Shown: positions 3,329-9,241, counted from the stretch's first letter. The stretch: 38,268 nucleotides of DNA from Candidatus Aminicenantota bacterium (GCA_026991555.1 JALXBI010000106.1:1-38268); one strand, 5' to 3'. Notes: generated by a model from the letters alone, not told the origin. Program-made: numbers and translations.

Positions 3329-3356
3329 GGGTTCCATTCTAAGGGGAGATTTTTCC

Positions 3357-3408
3357 AATTTTTAGGGTCTGTCCCTTTTTTCAATTTTTAGGGTCTGTCC
3401 CTTTTTTC
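3357..3408. repeat. tandem pair of 26-bp repeats
   Basis: Two perfect 26-bp copies (3357-3382, 3383-3408) of a unit containing AGGGTCTGTCCC between T-runs. The core is the reverse complement of the GGGACAGACCC cores at 1.6 kb. They lie in the divergent gap between the Cys-peptide gene and the 3490 barrel gene. Confidence 0.85.
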
Positions 3409-3489
3409 AGGATTCTTCTCCGGGAAAATTCGGTGATAGAATTTTCCTGTGCCCCTGGCTGCCTGGACTGCTATTTCAAGGAGGAGAAA

Positions 3490-4341
3490 ATGGGCTTAAC
3501 CTCAGGAGAAAAAGAGGATTACCTCATTGAAATTTTTATTTCCAGGAAAATTCGCCTTATATCCGCTCTGACACTTGCTTTAGCCCTCGTCAGTTTTTCC
3601 AAGGCAGCAGAGGCCAGAGTCCCAGCGAACGTTCCCCCTCCAATAAAGATCGCAGAGAAAGGCTCTTCCTCCTTCCTCAGCAGGGTCCTTTCCCACATAG
3701 TAATCTCAGGCGGAAGCTACTCCACCTTCAAGACCTTCGTCAACGAGTGGGTCCAGTACACAGGGACAAACCCGGAAAGGGAGTTTCAGAACACAGAGCC
3801 TTGGCACAACTCCTACCAGGGATGGTTCGCTGAGGCCGGACTGAGAATAGGTCCCATATCCATCAAGGTAGGGCAGAGCAGAGCACAGTTTACCCCAGAG
3901 ATACAGCGCTTCTTCCTCGAAAACCCCACAAGGCCGGGCTACGACGTAAAGATCACCCTTCCCACAGTGGACATGCTCTGGAAGGCCGCCTACCTCAAGG
4001 TGGAGTTTCAGCTGTTCAGAGAAAAAACCCTGGTACCTTTCATAGCCGCAACCTTCCCAATAAGTCAGAGCATGAAAACCCTGGACTACAACTCAAGCCC
4101 CCTAGTGGAAAGAGAACTCCCCCTAAACCCTAAGTTCCAGGACTTTGACATAGAAAACTTCAACAACATGGAAATCCCCGTAAAGCTCAGCTATACAGTA
4201 GAGGGGGGATTTGGGCTTCGCCTCTGGAAGAGGTTTAGAGCACGGGTATGGGTAAGATACGCCCCCTACGAGTGGGATATTTTCTACTACCACTACCGAC
4301 ACGACCCTATAAGCGTGGGGGCAGGTGCTGGAATATACTAG
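3490..4341 (+). CDS. exported beta-barrel-like protein, function unknown
   Basis: About 283 aa when started at the ATG at 3490, which has a strong AAGGAGGAG site five bases upstream; an in-frame upstream ATG at 3433 has no ribosome site. A signal segment (RLISALTLALALVSFSKAAEA) follows a charged N-terminus of about 20 residues. The mature protein has regular amphipathic strands (WFAEAGLRIGPISIKVGQS, VKLSYTVEGGFGLRLWKRF, ARVWVRYAPYEWDIFYYHY) and ends GAGAGIY, typical of an outer-membrane barrel ending in an aromatic residue. It is 13 bases ahead of the large secreted gene at 4355, so the two are probably co-transcribed and may form an exported pair. No family was recognised. Confidence 0.68.
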   Translation: MGLTSGEKEDYLIEIFISRKIRLISALTLALALVSFSKAAEARVPANVPPPIKIAEKGSSSFLSRVLSHIVISGGSYSTFKTFVNEWVQYTGTNPEREFQNTEPWHNSYQGWFAEAGLRIGPISIKVGQSRAQFTPEIQRFFLENPTRPGYDVKITLPTVDMLWKAAYLKVEFQLFREKTLVPFIAATFPISQSMKTLDYNSSPLVERELPLNPKFQDFDIENFNNMEIPVKLSYTVEGGFGLRLWKRFRARVWVRYAPYEWDIFYYHYRHDPISVGAGAGIY

Positions 4342-4354
4342 AGGGAGGTGAGCT

Positions 4355-6109
4355 TTGAGGAAAACAGCCGCATTCCTTATAGGGGCATGGCTTGTCCTTG
4401 CGGCAGGTCTTCCCCCTGAGGTGAAGAAAGCCTCCAGGGAGGGGTTTCTCCACACCGCAGGGGCAGAGAAGGGATGGGAAAGCCCCCAGAGGGTACCCCT
4501 TGCCTACGTCAGGGAGGGGCTTCGCCTTGCCTACGGAAGAGGAGTAAAAACCATCTGGGCCATATCTGACCCTGAGGGACGCCTTACAGCCTACGGGGTT
4601 GACCTTGAGGCACCGCCTTACGAGAAAAACACCTTCCACGGCATACCGCCTGTAAGGTCCGTCATACTGTCCGCATCCCTTGAGGAGCCTGCCTTCACAG
4701 CCGCCTTCTCTGTCCCCATAGAGTCGCTCTTCTCCTGCCCACAGCCCGAACAGCTGGTCCTTGTAAGAAAGTTCGCCCTGGTGAGCCGCTGTGGGGACAG
4801 CTGGCGCCTGGGAAGGGAAAAGCTCACCGCCTCCTGGGTAAAGCGCTTCGCCTACCGCTCCCCCCTGAAGGCAAAGCCTGGACCCGTAAAGATAAGCAGA
4901 ACTTGGGATGCCCTCCTGAGGGCAGAAGCCTCCTCCAGCGGAGTGATAGTCATGCCTGAGTTCGATGCCGTATGGCCGATAGACCACAACGAAACCTGGG
5001 GGATAAAGGGGATAACTCCATCAGAAAATCACAACTGTGGAGCATATAAGTACTACAACTTCACCGGTTCTGTTATTGTGCTCGGCGGGGTTATGGCCTC
5101 TGCGGCAAGGCTTATCTGGAAGGGAGAAAAGTACACCTTCAAGCCAGCTGTGGTGCAGTACGAAGAAAGAGGCTCTCCTGCTCCTAAAGAGATAAATTAC
5201 TGGGAACCCACGCACACCTTCTACTGCGTGCACTGGGTCCCTGCAGGGGTTATGACCGACTATCCTGAGATGACCTGCGAGAAGGAGTCCAAGGTTAATC
5301 CTCTGTGGTGGGGCGGATACCTTACCCCCATCGCCAGGAAGACCATAATTCCCTACGACTACTGGAAGTTTGCAGAAAGGAACGCAGAGGTTTATAAGAG
5401 CAGCAGAAGGTACACCACCACCTGGGCAAGCATTTTCGTTCCTCTCTTCAACAGCTACGGAAGGTTCGTCTATGAAAACAGCGTCCGCCCACCCTTCGTA
5501 AGGGATATAGGAAGAGAAGCAGCCCGCCCCCTCTGGTACAGGTACTTCAAGGAGAGGCTCCTTAAAAGAGCTCTTTTTGTAGAAGCAGCCTACGAGGGAG
5601 TTACTCCCGCAGGTTATCCAGGTTTTGTTGCTCCTGGCCCGCTTCCTGCTGGATGGGACGATGCTAAGTCCCTAATAGCGGTTTTTGCTCCTGAAGGTGC
5701 CTGGATGATCGGGGGGCCTTCAGGAGGCTACATAGTTCCCCCGGGCTACACATGGATAGCCCCTGAGCTTCTCGGTACAGATCCCCCTGGCTGGGTTTAT
5801 CCTCCCTCTGAGTTCGTGAACTCTCCCCCTGCTGTCTCTTTCCCCACCAGGGTAATAGTGAGGGAAGGGGAAGAGTTTACCCTCAAGGCAGATACCCACT
5901 GGGACAGGGAAGGGGAAAAGATAACCTGGGAGGTTGAGGACTCCCCTTTTACCGTGGTGGAAAAGAAGGACTGGTCCCTTACCCTGGTTGCGGACCTTCC
6001 TGAGAACCACTACGTTGTCTGGATAAAGTACACCGATGGGCACAGAGCAGTGCACCACCCCGTGGTGGTGTACGTTGCTCCAACTTATAAATTCGGAGAG
6101 GGAAAATGA
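4355..6109 (+). CDS. large secreted protein with C-terminal Ig/cadherin-like domain
   Basis: A 584-aa exported protein started at TTG 4355, six bases after GGGAGGTGAG. The signal peptide is MRKTAAFLIGAWLVLAAG. The body (about 25-480) is rich in Trp, Tyr and Pro with scattered Cys and matches no family I recognise. From about residue 488 the segment beginning NSPPAVSFPTRVIV and containing VREGEEFTLKA and WEVEDSPF has the look of an Ig-like or cadherin-like beta-sandwich (inference). It is coupled to the 3490 barrel gene and followed after 45 bases by a truncated gene with a similar TTG start and signal segment (6155), so this was probably at least a three-gene secretion cluster. Possible roles include a surface-layer or adhesion protein; none can be shown. 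Confidence 0.7.
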   Translation: MRKTAAFLIGAWLVLAAGLPPEVKKASREGFLHTAGAEKGWESPQRVPLAYVREGLRLAYGRGVKTIWAISDPEGRLTAYGVDLEAPPYEKNTFHGIPPVRSVILSASLEEPAFTAAFSVPIESLFSCPQPEQLVLVRKFALVSRCGDSWRLGREKLTASWVKRFAYRSPLKAKPGPVKISRTWDALLRAEASSSGVIVMPEFDAVWPIDHNETWGIKGITPSENHNCGAYKYYNFTGSVIVLGGVMASAARLIWKGEKYTFKPAVVQYEERGSPAPKEINYWEPTHTFYCVHWVPAGVMTDYPEMTCEKESKVNPLWWGGYLTPIARKTIIPYDYWKFAERNAEVYKSSRRYTTTWASIFVPLFNSYGRFVYENSVRPPFVRDIGREAARPLWYRYFKERLLKRALFVEAAYEGVTPAGYPGFVAPGPLPAGWDDAKSLIAVFAPEGAWMIGGPSGGYIVPPGYTWIAPELLGTDPPGWVYPPSEFVNSPPAVSFPTRVIVREGEEFTLKADTHWDREGEKITWEVEDSPFTVVEKKDWSLTLVADLPENHYVVWIKYTDGHRAVHHPVVVYVAPTYKFGEGK

Positions 6110-6229: not shown

Positions 6230-6258
6230 TTGAAAAACCCCTTTTCTTCTGGGATAAT
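6230..6258 (+). promoter_or_regulatory. candidate promoter for the 6277 ORF
   Basis: TTGAAA (6230-6235), 17-base spacer, GATAAT (6253-6258). The predicted start of transcription is just before GGGAAGGAG, the ribosome site of the ATG at 6277. Confidence 0.5.
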
Positions 6259-6276: not shown

Positions 6277-6507
6277 ATGAAATTAAAAGAAAGAAATTCG
6301 GAAATTTTCTGGCTTGCTTTTAAGGGCCTTTCCAGGGATGAGCAGAGGAAGGTAATTGAGCGGCTTTTAGCAGACAGGGATTTTATGGAGGAATTAAAGG
6401 CCATAGCGCTTATAGAACTTCGCAGAGAGGAGCCTTCAAGACCAATTGAGTTCACAGAGGGAAAGCCTACAGAAAGAAATAAAAATAACGCCTCGTTTCC
6501 GTATTAA
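6277..6507 (+). pseudogene. 5' part of an interrupted small antitoxin-like gene
   Basis: The ORF codes for 76 aa and has a GGAAGGAG ribosome site. Residues 1-54 (MKLKERNSEIFWLAFKGLS ... LIELRREEPS) look like a small helical protein whose ELRREEPSR-EEYLRE type ending resembles short antitoxin-like proteins of thermophiles (inference). After base 6440 it diverges into a tail (PIEFTEGKPTERNKNNASFPY) unlike the other copy. Bases 6345-6440 are identical to 8617-8712, and the copy at 8617 continues into the expected TVEEYLREVV ending. Joining 6277-6440 to 8713-8767 gives an intact 72-aa protein in one frame, so this is best read as the 5' portion of a gene split by the intervening segment. It may still be expressed. 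Confidence 0.65.
6345..6440 (+). repeat. 96-bp direct repeat, left copy
   Basis: Bases 6345-6440 are identical to 8617-8712, 2272 bp away in the same orientation. They lie in the same reading frame of the split antitoxin-like ORF. Flanking bases differ on both sides. Confidence 0.95.
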
Positions 6508-6599
6508 CAAAGGAATTCCCTCGCTGTAGGTATAAAAAGGTCGGGTATATGATGACAACTTTATCCAAAAACGGTATCTTTTAGGGGGCCACGTTTATG

Positions 6600-6628
6600 T
6601 TGATTTTTTTCACGCCGTGAAATAAAAT
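6600..6628 (+). promoter_or_regulatory. candidate promoter of the ATPase gene
   Basis: TTGATT (6600-6605), 17-base spacer, TAAAAT (6623-6628). The ATG is at 6639, so the transcript would be leaderless or nearly so; no ribosome site is visible. The spacer and the start codon are each covered by a palindrome. Confidence 0.5.
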
Positions 6629-6644
6629 CTTTCATGAGATGAAA
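6608..6644 (+). promoter_or_regulatory. pair of palindromic operators over promoter and start codon
   Basis: TTTCAC-GCC-GTGAAA (6608-6622) and TTTCAT-GAG-ATGAAA (6630-6644) share the pattern TTTCAY-N3-RTGAAA. Their centres are 22 bp apart, two helical turns, so two dimers would bind the same face. The first fills the -35/-10 spacer and the second covers the ATG at 6639. Confidence 0.55.
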
Positions 6645-7859
6645 AAAATTGACTACAAACCAAGGTGGCTTGCCCTTGCCTTGAGGCAGGCTCTTGCTTT
6701 GATGGAGGAAGGTGCCGTATCCGTAATAACCCTCACAGGACCGCGCCAGAGCGGAAAAACAACTTTGGTAAGAAACGAGCCTCCCTTCAGCAGATGGCAC
6801 TATATAAACCTTGATAACCTGGAGACCTTAGCAGTTGCCCACAGGGAGCCGGATGCTCTTTTCACTAAGGAAAAGAATGTGGTTATAGATGAAATCCAGA
6901 GGGCTCCTAAGCTTCTTCTTAAGGTAAAAGAGCTTGCAGACATGGAGGGCTACCGCTTTCTTCTTACGGGATCTGCGAATCTTCTGCTTTTAAGGAAGGT
7001 GAGCGAAAGCCTGGCAGGAAGAACAGCTATCTTCTATCTTGCCCCGTTTTCCTCCAGGGAGTGGGCAGGGAAAGGGCCGGGCCTTCTCTTGAAGGTGGTA
7101 AAGGGCGAAGAGCCTTCTGAGGGGGAAACAGAGGAATTTTATCCCTTAGAAAGAAGGCTGACAGAGGGTTCCATGCCCCCTGCTCTTCTCCTGAGCAGCG
7201 GACACCGCCTTTGGTGGGAAGGGTATGTAAGGACATACTTGGAGAGGGATTTGAGGGACATTTCCTCCATATCCAACCTTTGGGATTTTCACAGGCTCCT
7301 TGAGTTTTTAGCCTTTATGAGCGGCGGACTTCTGGAGGAGGCTTCCCTTGCAAGAAGGGTAGGCATAAGCCCAGCTACAGTTCACAGGTGGATAAACCTG
7401 TTGGAGGCTTCTTTTATACTGCATAAACTGCCTCCCTTTTTAAAGAGCAGAAAGGCGAGGCTTTGGAAAAGGCCCAAGGTTTACCTTGTGGACCCGGCCT
7501 TGAGCTTTCACCTTATGGGAACAGCTCCTAAAAAGCTCAGCCAAGAGGAATGGGGAAGGCTCTTTGAAAACTTCGTGTTCCTTCAGCTTCACGCTCTGTG
7601 CTCCTCCTTTGGAGGGAGGCTTTTTTACTGGAGGATAGCAGAGATACCTGAGAAGGAAGTTGATTTTATCTGGGAATACGAGGGAGAAATAATCCCCATT
7701 GAGGCAAAGTACAAGGAAAAGCTGAGTCCTGCTGATGCCGAGGGAATTCTCCGCTTCTGCAGGGAGCAGCCCTGCCGTGTGGGAATCATAGTTTACAGGG
7801 GGAAAAGGATATACGAGGTTCTAAAGAACATCTGGGCTGTGCCTGTGTGGGAAATTTGA
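6639..7859 (+). CDS. DUF4143-type AAA ATPase (COG1373 family)
   Basis: A 406-aa ATPase of the AAA_14/DUF4143 family. The Walker A motif is GPRQSGKT (34-41), Walker B is VVIDEIQ (81-87) and sensor-1 is FLLTGSANLLLL. A winged-helix-like piece, LARRVGISPATVHRWINLLE, lies in the middle, and the C-terminal part (VDFIWEYEGEIIPIEAKY) has the E-V-D-F ... E-A-K signature of a PD-(D/E)XK-like nuclease fold. These ATPases are widespread in accessory DNA; their cellular role is poorly defined. Its promoter carries two palindromes. It lies inside the segment bracketed by the 96-bp repeats and converges on hicA. Family assignment is firm; function is not. Confidence 0.9.
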   Translation: MKKIDYKPRWLALALRQALALMEEGAVSVITLTGPRQSGKTTLVRNEPPFSRWHYINLDNLETLAVAHREPDALFTKEKNVVIDEIQRAPKLLLKVKELADMEGYRFLLTGSANLLLLRKVSESLAGRTAIFYLAPFSSREWAGKGPGLLLKVVKGEEPSEGETEEFYPLERRLTEGSMPPALLLSSGHRLWWEGYVRTYLERDLRDISSISNLWDFHRLLEFLAFMSGGLLEEASLARRVGISPATVHRWINLLEASFILHKLPPFLKSRKARLWKRPKVYLVDPALSFHLMGTAPKKLSQEEWGRLFENFVFLQLHALCSSFGGRLFYWRIAEIPEKEVDFIWEYEGEIIPIEAKYKEKLSPADAEGILRFCREQPCRVGIIVYRGKRIYEVLKNIWAVPVWEI

Positions 7860-7890
7860 ACCTTCCTCAAATTGTAAATCCGACAATGCT

Positions 7891-8097
7891 TCACAGTTCC
7901 TCTTCGCTAATCCCCGCTATTTTCAAGAAATATTTGAGAAGCCCTCTTTTAAGAGGTTTGTTTCCGTGAACTGGAACGGAGATTTTTATACTGGTGCCCT
8001 TCTTGCCATAAATGTGATGGCTTCCTTTTATTCTCTCAAGCTCCCATCCCTTTTTTCTCAATATTTTCCCGAATTCTTTACCGGAAATCTGCTTCAT
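7891..8097 (-). CDS. hicA: HicA-family mRNA interferase toxin
   Basis: A 68-aa protein of the HicA/YcfA family, a small dsRNA-binding-like fold that cleaves mRNA when free of its antitoxin. The family features are present: ISGKEFGKILRKKGWELERIKGSHHIY with the catalytic His in GSHH, then KISVPVHGNKPLKRGLLKYFLK. Full length for the family. Its ATG overlaps the TGA of hicB by four bases (8094-8097), so translation is coupled and the antitoxin gene comes first, an arrangement found in many HicBA loci. No truncation is seen, so the toxin is probably functional. Confidence 0.93.
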   Translation of the reverse strand: MKQISGKEFGKILRKKGWELERIKGSHHIYGKKGTSIKISVPVHGNKPLKRGLLKYFLKIAGISEEEL

Positions 8098-8303
8098 ACA
8101 GCTATTTCTATTATTTTGGCTTCTTTAGGGAGAACTTTATCCTGAGACTCTGCCCTGGCTTCCAGGTATCCTTCTATCGCTTCATAGAGATTCTTCAAGA
8201 GGTCTTCAAAGGTTTCACCCTGAGTGGCACACCCCGGAAGAGCAGGGACTTCTGCCCAATACCCTCCTTCTTCCGCTTTGTGCACTATTACTTTTATTTT
8301 CAT
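8094..8303 (-). CDS. hicB: HicB-family antitoxin
   Basis: A 69-aa HicB antitoxin: KIKVIVHKAEEGGYWAEVPALPGC and then TQGETFEDLLKNLYEAIEGYLEA, the partial RNase-H-like fold that binds and neutralises HicA. It is the short form without a C-terminal DNA-binding domain, so autoregulation through its own HTH or ribbon-helix-helix is not evident. AAGGAGGG lies just before the ATG. The operon is preceded by a TGTTATAAT extended -10 element. The pair lies inside the repeat-bracketed segment and could help keep it in the genome (inference). Confidence 0.93.
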   Translation of the reverse strand: MKIKVIVHKAEEGGYWAEVPALPGCATQGETFEDLLKNLYEAIEGYLEARAESQDKVLPKEAKIIEIAV

Positions 8304-8320
8304 TTTTGCCCTCCTTATAA

Positions 8321-8335
8321 ATTATAACATGTCAA
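8321..8335 (-). promoter_or_regulatory. candidate extended -10 promoter of hicBA
   Basis: On the minus strand TGTTATAAT (plus 8321-8329) matches an extended -10 element, with TTGACA (plus 8330-8335) directly adjoining but too close to pair with it. The predicted transcription start falls at the hicB ribosome site, so the leader would be very short. Confidence 0.4.
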
Positions 8336-8616
8336 TTCTTATTAGAGCATTTTGGGGATTCTTCTCGGGGAGTTTTTTATAATCTGATTCAGTTTTTACC
8401 CTGTTCTTTCCTTTGCGGAGGATTGGGAAGGATCCTCTTCCCCATTGAAAGAAAGTTAAACTTCTCACATTTTTGTGGATTTCCCTGTGGTCGAATTTCC
8501 AGGTTTCTTCTTGTTTTCTCCTTTCCCTGCACTGGGATTGTGCAGTTTAACGGGGTCCATAAAAAGGGTCTGTCCCCAATTTGGGTCCATAAAAAGGGTC
8601 TGTCCCCAATTTGGCT
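8336..8616. other. non-coding stretch with hairpins and repeats
   Basis: No convincing gene lies between hicB and the right copy of the 96-bp repeat. It contains the inverted repeats GGGAAG-GATCCT-CTTCCC (8425-8442) and CTGCAC-TGGGATT-GTGCAG (8527-8545), then two tandem 30-bp repeats ending four bases before the 96-bp copy. An ORF reading through from 8423 is judged an artefact of the repeats. Confidence 0.6.
8553..8612 (+). repeat. tandem pair of 30-bp repeats
   Basis: Two perfect 30-bp copies (8553-8582, 8583-8612). Each unit starts GGGTCCATAAAAAGGG and ends TCTGTCCCCAATTT, and contains the GGGTCTGTCCC core of the dispersed repeat family. They abut the right 96-bp copy, marking a likely rearrangement joint. 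Confidence 0.9.
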
Positions 8617-8712
8617 GAGGAAGGTAATTGAGCGGCTTTTAGCAGACAGGGATTTTATGGAGGAATTAAAGGCCATAGCGCTTATAGAACTTCGCAGAGA
8701 GGAGCCTTCAAG
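8617..8712 (+). repeat. 96-bp direct repeat, right copy
   Basis: Identical over all 96 bases to 6345-6440, same orientation. The left boundary lies four bases after the tandem 30-bp repeats. Confidence 0.95.
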
Positions 8713-8767
8713 GACGGTTGAGGAGTATCTAAGGGAAGTTGTTTCTGATATTAACACTGCTTGTTGA
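8617..8767 (+). pseudogene. 3' part of the interrupted small antitoxin-like gene
   Basis: This fragment encodes RKVIERLLADRDFMEEL, continues as in the left copy, and then has the ending SRTVEEYLREVVSDINTAC before TGA. It lacks a start codon of its own; the 5' part is at 6277-6440. The frame matches the left copy exactly. The -35 box of the next operon (8764-8769) overlaps its stop codon. Confidence 0.65.
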
Positions 8768-8830: not shown

Positions 8831-9241
8831 ATGAGAAAGGCTTTAGTTCTTTTGTTAGCCTTGTCTCTTATTGGATTGCCTGCTATGGCTCAGTCCCAAA
8901 CCACCTACATGTCAAGCAAAGACTACACTGAGGGCAGACTGGATGGGGAGGCTGACGCTACAGGAAACCAGATATGGTTGTTGGGAGGATGTTTGCTCGG
9001 TGTGGTGGGGGTTCTTTTGGCCTATGTGATTGAGCCAGAAGTTCCTTCCGGAAGGCTTATAGGGAAGAGCCCAGCCTATATTCAGGGGTATACCGAAGGA
9101 TACAAGTCTGCTACTAAAAGGAAAAATGCTATGTATGCCCTTTACGGAATGTTAGCTTGGTTGGTGTTCTTGATAGTGTATTATGTAGCAGTAATAGCAG
9201 CAGTATCCTCTGCCACATATTTAGCCCCCTCCGGCTATTGA
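8831..9241 (+). CDS. exported/membrane protein, first gene of the YidD operon
   Basis: A 136-aa protein with a signal peptide (LVLLLALSLIGLPAMA), then a hydrophilic DYTEGRLDGEADA motif, a membrane span (IWLLGGCLLGVVGVLLAYVI), a second polar motif (SPAYIQGYTEGYKSATKRK) and a C-terminal span (ALYGMLAWLVFLIVYYVAV). The two YTEG-type motifs may be internal repeats. A good AGGAGG site precedes the ATG and a strong promoter lies at 8764-8792. It overlaps the next gene in a TTGA stop/start. No named family was recognised; position suggests a partner of YidD and the downstream envelope proteins. Confidence 0.78.
   Translation: MRKALVLLLALSLIGLPAMAQSQTTYMSSKDYTEGRLDGEADATGNQIWLLGGCLLGVVGVLLAYVIEPEVPSGRLIGKSPAYIQGYTEGYKSATKRKNAMYALYGMLAWLVFLIVYYVAVIAAVSSATYLAPSGY

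Follow-up and report, generated by a model that had tools for sequence, protein, structure and literature searches.

Introduction

Integrative elements of the e14/icd type are lodged at the 3' end of tRNA or protein genes. The locus described here, in a 38,268-nucleotide stretch of DNA from a Candidatus Aminicenantota bacterium (GCA_026991555.1 JALXBI010000106.1:1-38268, the whole of it being called the window), and the loci compared with it recall such elements, with an ORF retained on one side, a displaced tail on the other and accretion at a single gene, but the inserted segment has neither an integrase nor a common core site, and the repeats are variable and diverged. The segment also differs from a transposon or an insertion sequence (IS) by the lack of terminal inverted repeats and of a transposase, as well as by a duplication of 96 bp instead of a short one.

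In E. coli conjugation, partial duplications of the target were found in 56 of 60 recombinants, with a length of 109-950 bp in the 14 that were sequenced, and were explained by a circularised molecule entering through single crossover, with fewer cases of homology-facilitated illegitimate recombination (HFIR) (PMC3240628); a similar route has been proposed for orphan immunity genes in the immunity-gene arrays of V. cholerae (PMC5361080). The window shares with these insertions a target partially duplicated by inserted DNA, orphan gene parts and no need for an integrase, its 96-bp duplication flanking DNA that is absent from the rest of the genome. It differs from them in that the event is natural, follows an inferred route, has counterparts at the tails of many unrelated genes, and involves a cargo of DUF4143 ATPase and toxin-antitoxin (TA) genes. 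REP sequences and RAYT transposases (PMC2817692) provide a further comparison, since the segment contains tandem REP-like units and REP/RAYT repeats enclose some of the related ATPases, a RAYT being present at the locus L118, but the window is devoid of RAYT and its 96-bp repeat stems from a gene and not from a REP. Regarding the cargo, the ATPase resembles the PADLOC defence candidate PDC-S01, namely a single gene in which an AAA ATPase is fused to a nuclease-like DUF4143 domain. PDC-S01 is reported to rank as the fourth commonest defence system across prokaryotes, and most such candidates are without experimental validation (PMC12988326); no account of how it moves was found in the searched literature.

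The 96-bp direct repeat and gene X

On the forward strand of the window, positions 6345-6440 and 8617-8712 form a direct repeat of exactly 96 bp with a spacing of 2272 and 0 mismatches, as reported in the initial annotation; the exact match extends no further, with weaker similarity continuing past the core (129 nt at 89%). The 96-mer is confined to these two sites in the whole genome (1.9 Mb, 125 contigs), which excludes a chance origin, and the same search disclosed no second copy of the gene concerned, here gene X. The identity ends 55 nt before the stop codon, the tail of the left copy being different, and little microhomology is present at the junctions. No inverted repeat pair was found at the ends of the segment and an Rfam search returned 0 matches; an IS end that seemed by eye to resemble the left end of the insert was unsupported by blastn. 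On the right, the copy starts 4 bp past two tandem 30-bp repeats, and a weak TTGAG match continues beyond the border. Near this border, the REP unit (at 8594) matches gene X (at 6322) at 10 of 12 positions in the same register, a match equalled or bettered at about 0.1% of random positions in what is a post hoc test.

The left copy belongs to an ORF of 76 codons (6277-6507, forward strand), with a start, an SD-like sequence and promoter-like hexamers upstream at 6230-6258, which consists of the 5' part of the gene, the 96-bp copy and an altered 3' tail (6441-6507) and stays open over the junction. The right copy has no start codon and leads into the other 3' tail (8713-8767, forward strand; EYLREVVSDINTAC and stop). 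The description of the left copy as bearing the 5' end of the gene with an odd tail, and of the right copy as startless, is retained. This right-hand tail is probably the displaced native end, since it is continuous with the downstream gene p8831 (8831-9241, forward strand, 136 aa), whose neighbourhood is conserved at the family level in G006, a genome of another genus: there, a homologue with 70% identity on contig C42 is followed by homologues of p9157 and YidD. At the position matching the site of the window, G006 has a different gene. A C-terminal comparison of both tails with the only homologue of gene X favoured neither of them. It had also been argued that joining 6277-6440 to 8713-8767 gives exactly 73 codons; this carries no independent weight, since a length divisible by three follows automatically whenever a tail is read in frame as far as its first stop.

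The joined 72-aa product received no Pfam, NCBIfam or PADLOC assignment, and its one match in the class is marginal (E 0.0015, 35% over 44 residues) and lies within a longer frame. One clear relative of gene X occurs in the phylum, in G490 (30% identity, E 6e-7), where it shares part of its sequence with an overlapping ORF that resembles HigB-2 toxins (E 9e-5). Gene X may thus be an orphan antitoxin-like gene, which is offered as a lead only; no RelE/HigB-type toxin was found adjoining it in the window. The intact 72-aa gene, whose existence the initial annotation implied, was found neither in 60 relatives nor in 142 genomes of the class and 396 of the phylum, and searches of GTDB contigs, plasmids and IMG/VR did not disclose it either, which bears neither way because gene X itself is absent elsewhere. 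Likewise, no empty site was found: same-genus genomes share FTCD-TsaD-MiaB and diverge upstream.

Contents of the inserted segment

The DNA between the two copies (6441-8616, 2176 bp) was not found elsewhere in the genome, REP units aside. On the forward strand, it encodes an ATPase (6639-7859) with matches to the Pfam domains AAA_14 (1.6e-25) and DUF4143 (2.6e-33) and, over residues 8-404, to the PADLOC profile PDC-S01 (1.1e-93), which makes it a candidate defence gene; in addition, its EVDF...IEAK motif is similar to a PD-(D/E)XK signature. On the opposite strand lie genes for a HicA-type toxin (7891-8097; HicA_toxin, 3e-17) and a HicB-like antitoxin (8094-8303; HicB_lk_antitox, 1.6e-9), adjacent and overlapping as in HicBA systems, to which these Pfam matches assign them as a predicted toxin-antitoxin pair; the difference from described systems is that the pair sits within an inserted segment. 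The family matches in the segment are limited to these three ORFs, in agreement with the annotated content of a DUF4143 ATPase and a toxin-antitoxin pair. As also annotated, ORF and Pfam searches of the DNA between the copies disclosed neither a transposase nor an integrase, nor was any RAYT ORF found in the segment in spite of its REP-like units.

These units, two tandem 30-bp repeats on the forward strand (8553-8612) with the core GGGTCTGTCCC, had been counted as part of the inserted unit, to which they are not peculiar: the core is present in 109 copies across the genome, vs. 3 for a reversed control pattern, and represents a genome-wide REP-like family. In the window, its sites include 1667-1677 and 3350-3401 besides 8553-8612. 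Its members are often arranged in tandem and placed at contig ends, where they point inward, and adjoin recurring gene ends, the latter perhaps parts of multi-copy elements.

Other repeated sequences are present in the window. Positions 1761-2174 hold a 137-aa ORF of 16-aa repeats (DSHYSTxxYI) in six units of 48-51 bp. At 3433-6109 lies a two-gene cassette (302 aa and 584 aa), with a divergent paralogue pair on contig C69 and in sister species; the comparison also took in G001:C183. The first 168-270 bp of this cassette are 92-96% identical to copies at C69:2520-2789 and C120:2440-2606, and on C120 the leader meets a stop and is then followed by a glycosyltransferase-like frame, a distribution suggestive of a mobile or converted 5' leader.

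Regarding the initial view of ATPase and hicBA as one unit, the pairing is unique to the window: among 142 class genomes, relatives of HicA (E <= 1e-6) and of the ATPase (E <= 1e-20) share a contig nowhere else, and no further site was found in the genome itself. The distribution of the ATPase is patchy (64 of the 142 class genomes), and within the genus relatives of the ATPase and of HicBA are lacking, save for an ATPase of 28% identity in G002. No relatives of the ATPase were found in IMG/VR, and distant ones occur in six phage records. From their relatives never sharing a contig in the class and from the patchiness of the ATPase, the association of ATPase and hicBA reads as a local combination and not as a conserved unit.

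Duplicated gene tails around DUF4143 ATPases

Direct-repeat brackets, defined as direct repeats at most 1.5 kb away on both sides of a gene, enclose 25 of the 120 DUF4143 ATPases of the class vs. 13 of 255 other ORFs (Fisher p 6.5e-6), none of 120 random windows and none of 91 windows along the contig described here. Many of the ATPase brackets consist of REP, RAYT or transposase debris. For instance, the ATPase relatives of L115, L116 and L118 lie between direct repeats of 150-340 bp of REP/RAYT origin, and at L118 a RAYT-like gene and a nucleotidyltransferase/HepT-like pair are enclosed as well. At eight bracketed loci including the window, however, the repeats are duplicated parts of genes, mostly 3' tails, and the genes are unrelated: mgsA/rarA (L106; 210 nt, 89%), the methylmalonyl-CoA mutase gene (L179; 127 nt, 94%, three copies), ftsZ (L207; 71 nt, 92%), a DUF1028 gene (L216; 130 nt, 78%), a PDDEXK_1 gene (L223; 126 nt, 88%), a GIY-YIG-like gene (L236; three copies) and queH (L244; 42 nt, 90%). 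HicBA pairs with a duplicated gene tail show the same layout at L169 and L172. This pattern was met during the search and not predicted beforehand, and most of the loci are draft metagenome assemblies. The tail copies are 36 to 210 nt long and often just 74-94% identical, and their identity reaches to about 25 nt or less from the stop, vs. 55 nt short of it in the window. No common end sequence or core site was apparent on inspection of 12 junction pairs, and cargoes made of a lone ATPase are compact (1.3-1.5 kb).

At L179 and L236, the three copies of the tail enclose two cargoes in succession, which gives the appearance of two insertions at one gene; the cargoes are a lipoprotein-like gene and the ATPase at L179, and a SocA-like HTH gene and the ATPase at L236 (GIY-YIG-like and SocA-like being labels assigned by eye). 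Mismatches between copies fall mostly on third codon positions (15 of 28 at L216, 8 of 13 at L223, 4 of 4 at L244, 3 of 4 at L179 and 8 of 16 at L106), a bias which indicates that the two copies were both still coding while they diverged and came together only later, as expected if one of them derived from the gene of another host.

In an automated test, tail copies outnumbered start copies 7:1 around the ATPases, the single start copy being a REP sequence; the count of seven includes L115, also a REP sequence, L207 and the window having been added by hand. Support for this tail bias is fairly good. That the ATPase plays a special part in it is unproven, because the excess of C-terminal fragments over other genes of the same loci (7 of 120 ATPases vs. 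5 of 205 other genes) is not significant (p 0.11). The five non-ATPase cases belong to three loci, each of which also has an ATPase; at ATPase-free loci, brackets were absent around all 64 ORFs.

Sphingomonad plasmids

Sixteen complete plasmids with a DUF4143 gene provided a test outside metagenome drafts. A duplicated gene tail is present at one of the 16 loci, in Sphingomonas sp. NBWT7 (L283), where the ATPase is preceded or followed by a tyrosine-integrase gene and has, on its other side, a damaged second copy of the tail of that gene (83% amino-acid identity over 41 residues). The same arrangement is found on a Sphingobium plasmid (L298), and five related plasmids carry the integrase gene with no ATPase beside it. 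Between L283 and L298, the intact tail is 96% identical vs. 87% for the detached copy, a faster decay as expected for a relic. Across L283 and L293-L298, tyrosine-integrase genes have varied accessory neighbours, namely DUF4143 ATPase, TIR, VapC and GNAT genes, and are possibly a hotspot.

Origin of the arrangement

The reading preferred here, with a probability of about 0.5, is that gene X served as the anchor for a recombination event by which accessory DNA comprising ATPase, HicBA and REP units was inserted. The event would be one case of a process that recurs, with DUF4143 ATPases and toxin-antitoxin genes entering at gene tails and duplicating the tail, sometimes repeatedly at one gene. 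In the incoming DNA, part of an X orthologue would have stood beside the cargo; pairing would have been homologous within this part and the other end joined non-homologously or, alternatively, a circularised molecule would have entered by single crossover. Anchored in a gene tail, either route should yield the order seen, from left to right an intact X ORF with the incoming tail, the cargo and the displaced X tail. No donor with a relative of gene X beside the cargo was found in the class, the phylum or the wider searches. Of the initial proposal of a unit inserted with duplication of its target, the insertion gains from the same architecture at unrelated genes and from plasmids with cargo-free comparators; the unit does not.

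The in-register likeness between gene X and the REP unit next to the right junction is left unexplained by anchored recombination and counts in favour of an accident of repair or replication, a one-off in which X underwent a staggered break or a switch of template, unrelated DNA was filled in and copying resumed 96 bp upstream. Such a slip requires no donor copy of X and agrees with the slight microhomology, but it explains neither why tails rather than starts are duplicated at other loci nor the third-codon-position differences between copies, and is regarded as unlikely. The targeting of tails, the recurrent compact cargoes with lone ATPases of 1.3-1.5 kb and the successive insertions at L179 and L236 would be accommodated by a helper-dependent cassette, inserted at gene tails with restoration of the target ORF, in the manner of tRNA- or icd-type integrative elements, either by a site-specific recombinase supplied in trans or through the action of the ATPase-nuclease; against it stand the lack of an integrase in the segment, of a common end sequence among cases, and of constancy in copy length (36-210 nt) and identity (often just 74-94%), so that it is rather improbable. 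The bolder form of the idea, in which genes for DUF4143 (PDC-S01) ATPase-nucleases, like small TA modules, move as genuine cassettes into the tails of arbitrary genes with the ATPase-nuclease promoting insertion, is regarded as improbable.

A short and perfect repeat in a draft of 125 contigs, many of which end in REP-like sequence, also raises the suspicion that two metagenome loci were misjoined at a common 96-bp sequence; contig-end overlaps did not reveal the k of the assembler. Such an artefact has a slim chance only, as the window contains no N, its right side is in family-level synteny, and similar layouts with diverged copies, one of them in complete plasmids, cannot stem from identical repeats. 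Finally, the TTGAG match past the right border might hint at two ancestral X paralogues homogenised by gene conversion, which is most improbable given that the right copy lacks a start and lies 4 bp beyond a pair of REP units, that the genome contains X only once and that no X was found in relatives.

Conclusions

With recombination anchored in gene X as the preferred reading, the interest of the window lies less in the single excisable unit of the initial annotation than in its belonging to a pattern that recurs. Duplicated gene tails would be direct marks of insertion, date the events by identical vs. decayed copies, and reveal the target genes and often the donor, making the question of mobility testable in complete genomes. 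If recombination is merely passive, they would still be a readable scar of single-gene acquisition; if the mobile-cassette reading is true, it would explain the integrase-free spread of a very common single-gene defence candidate.
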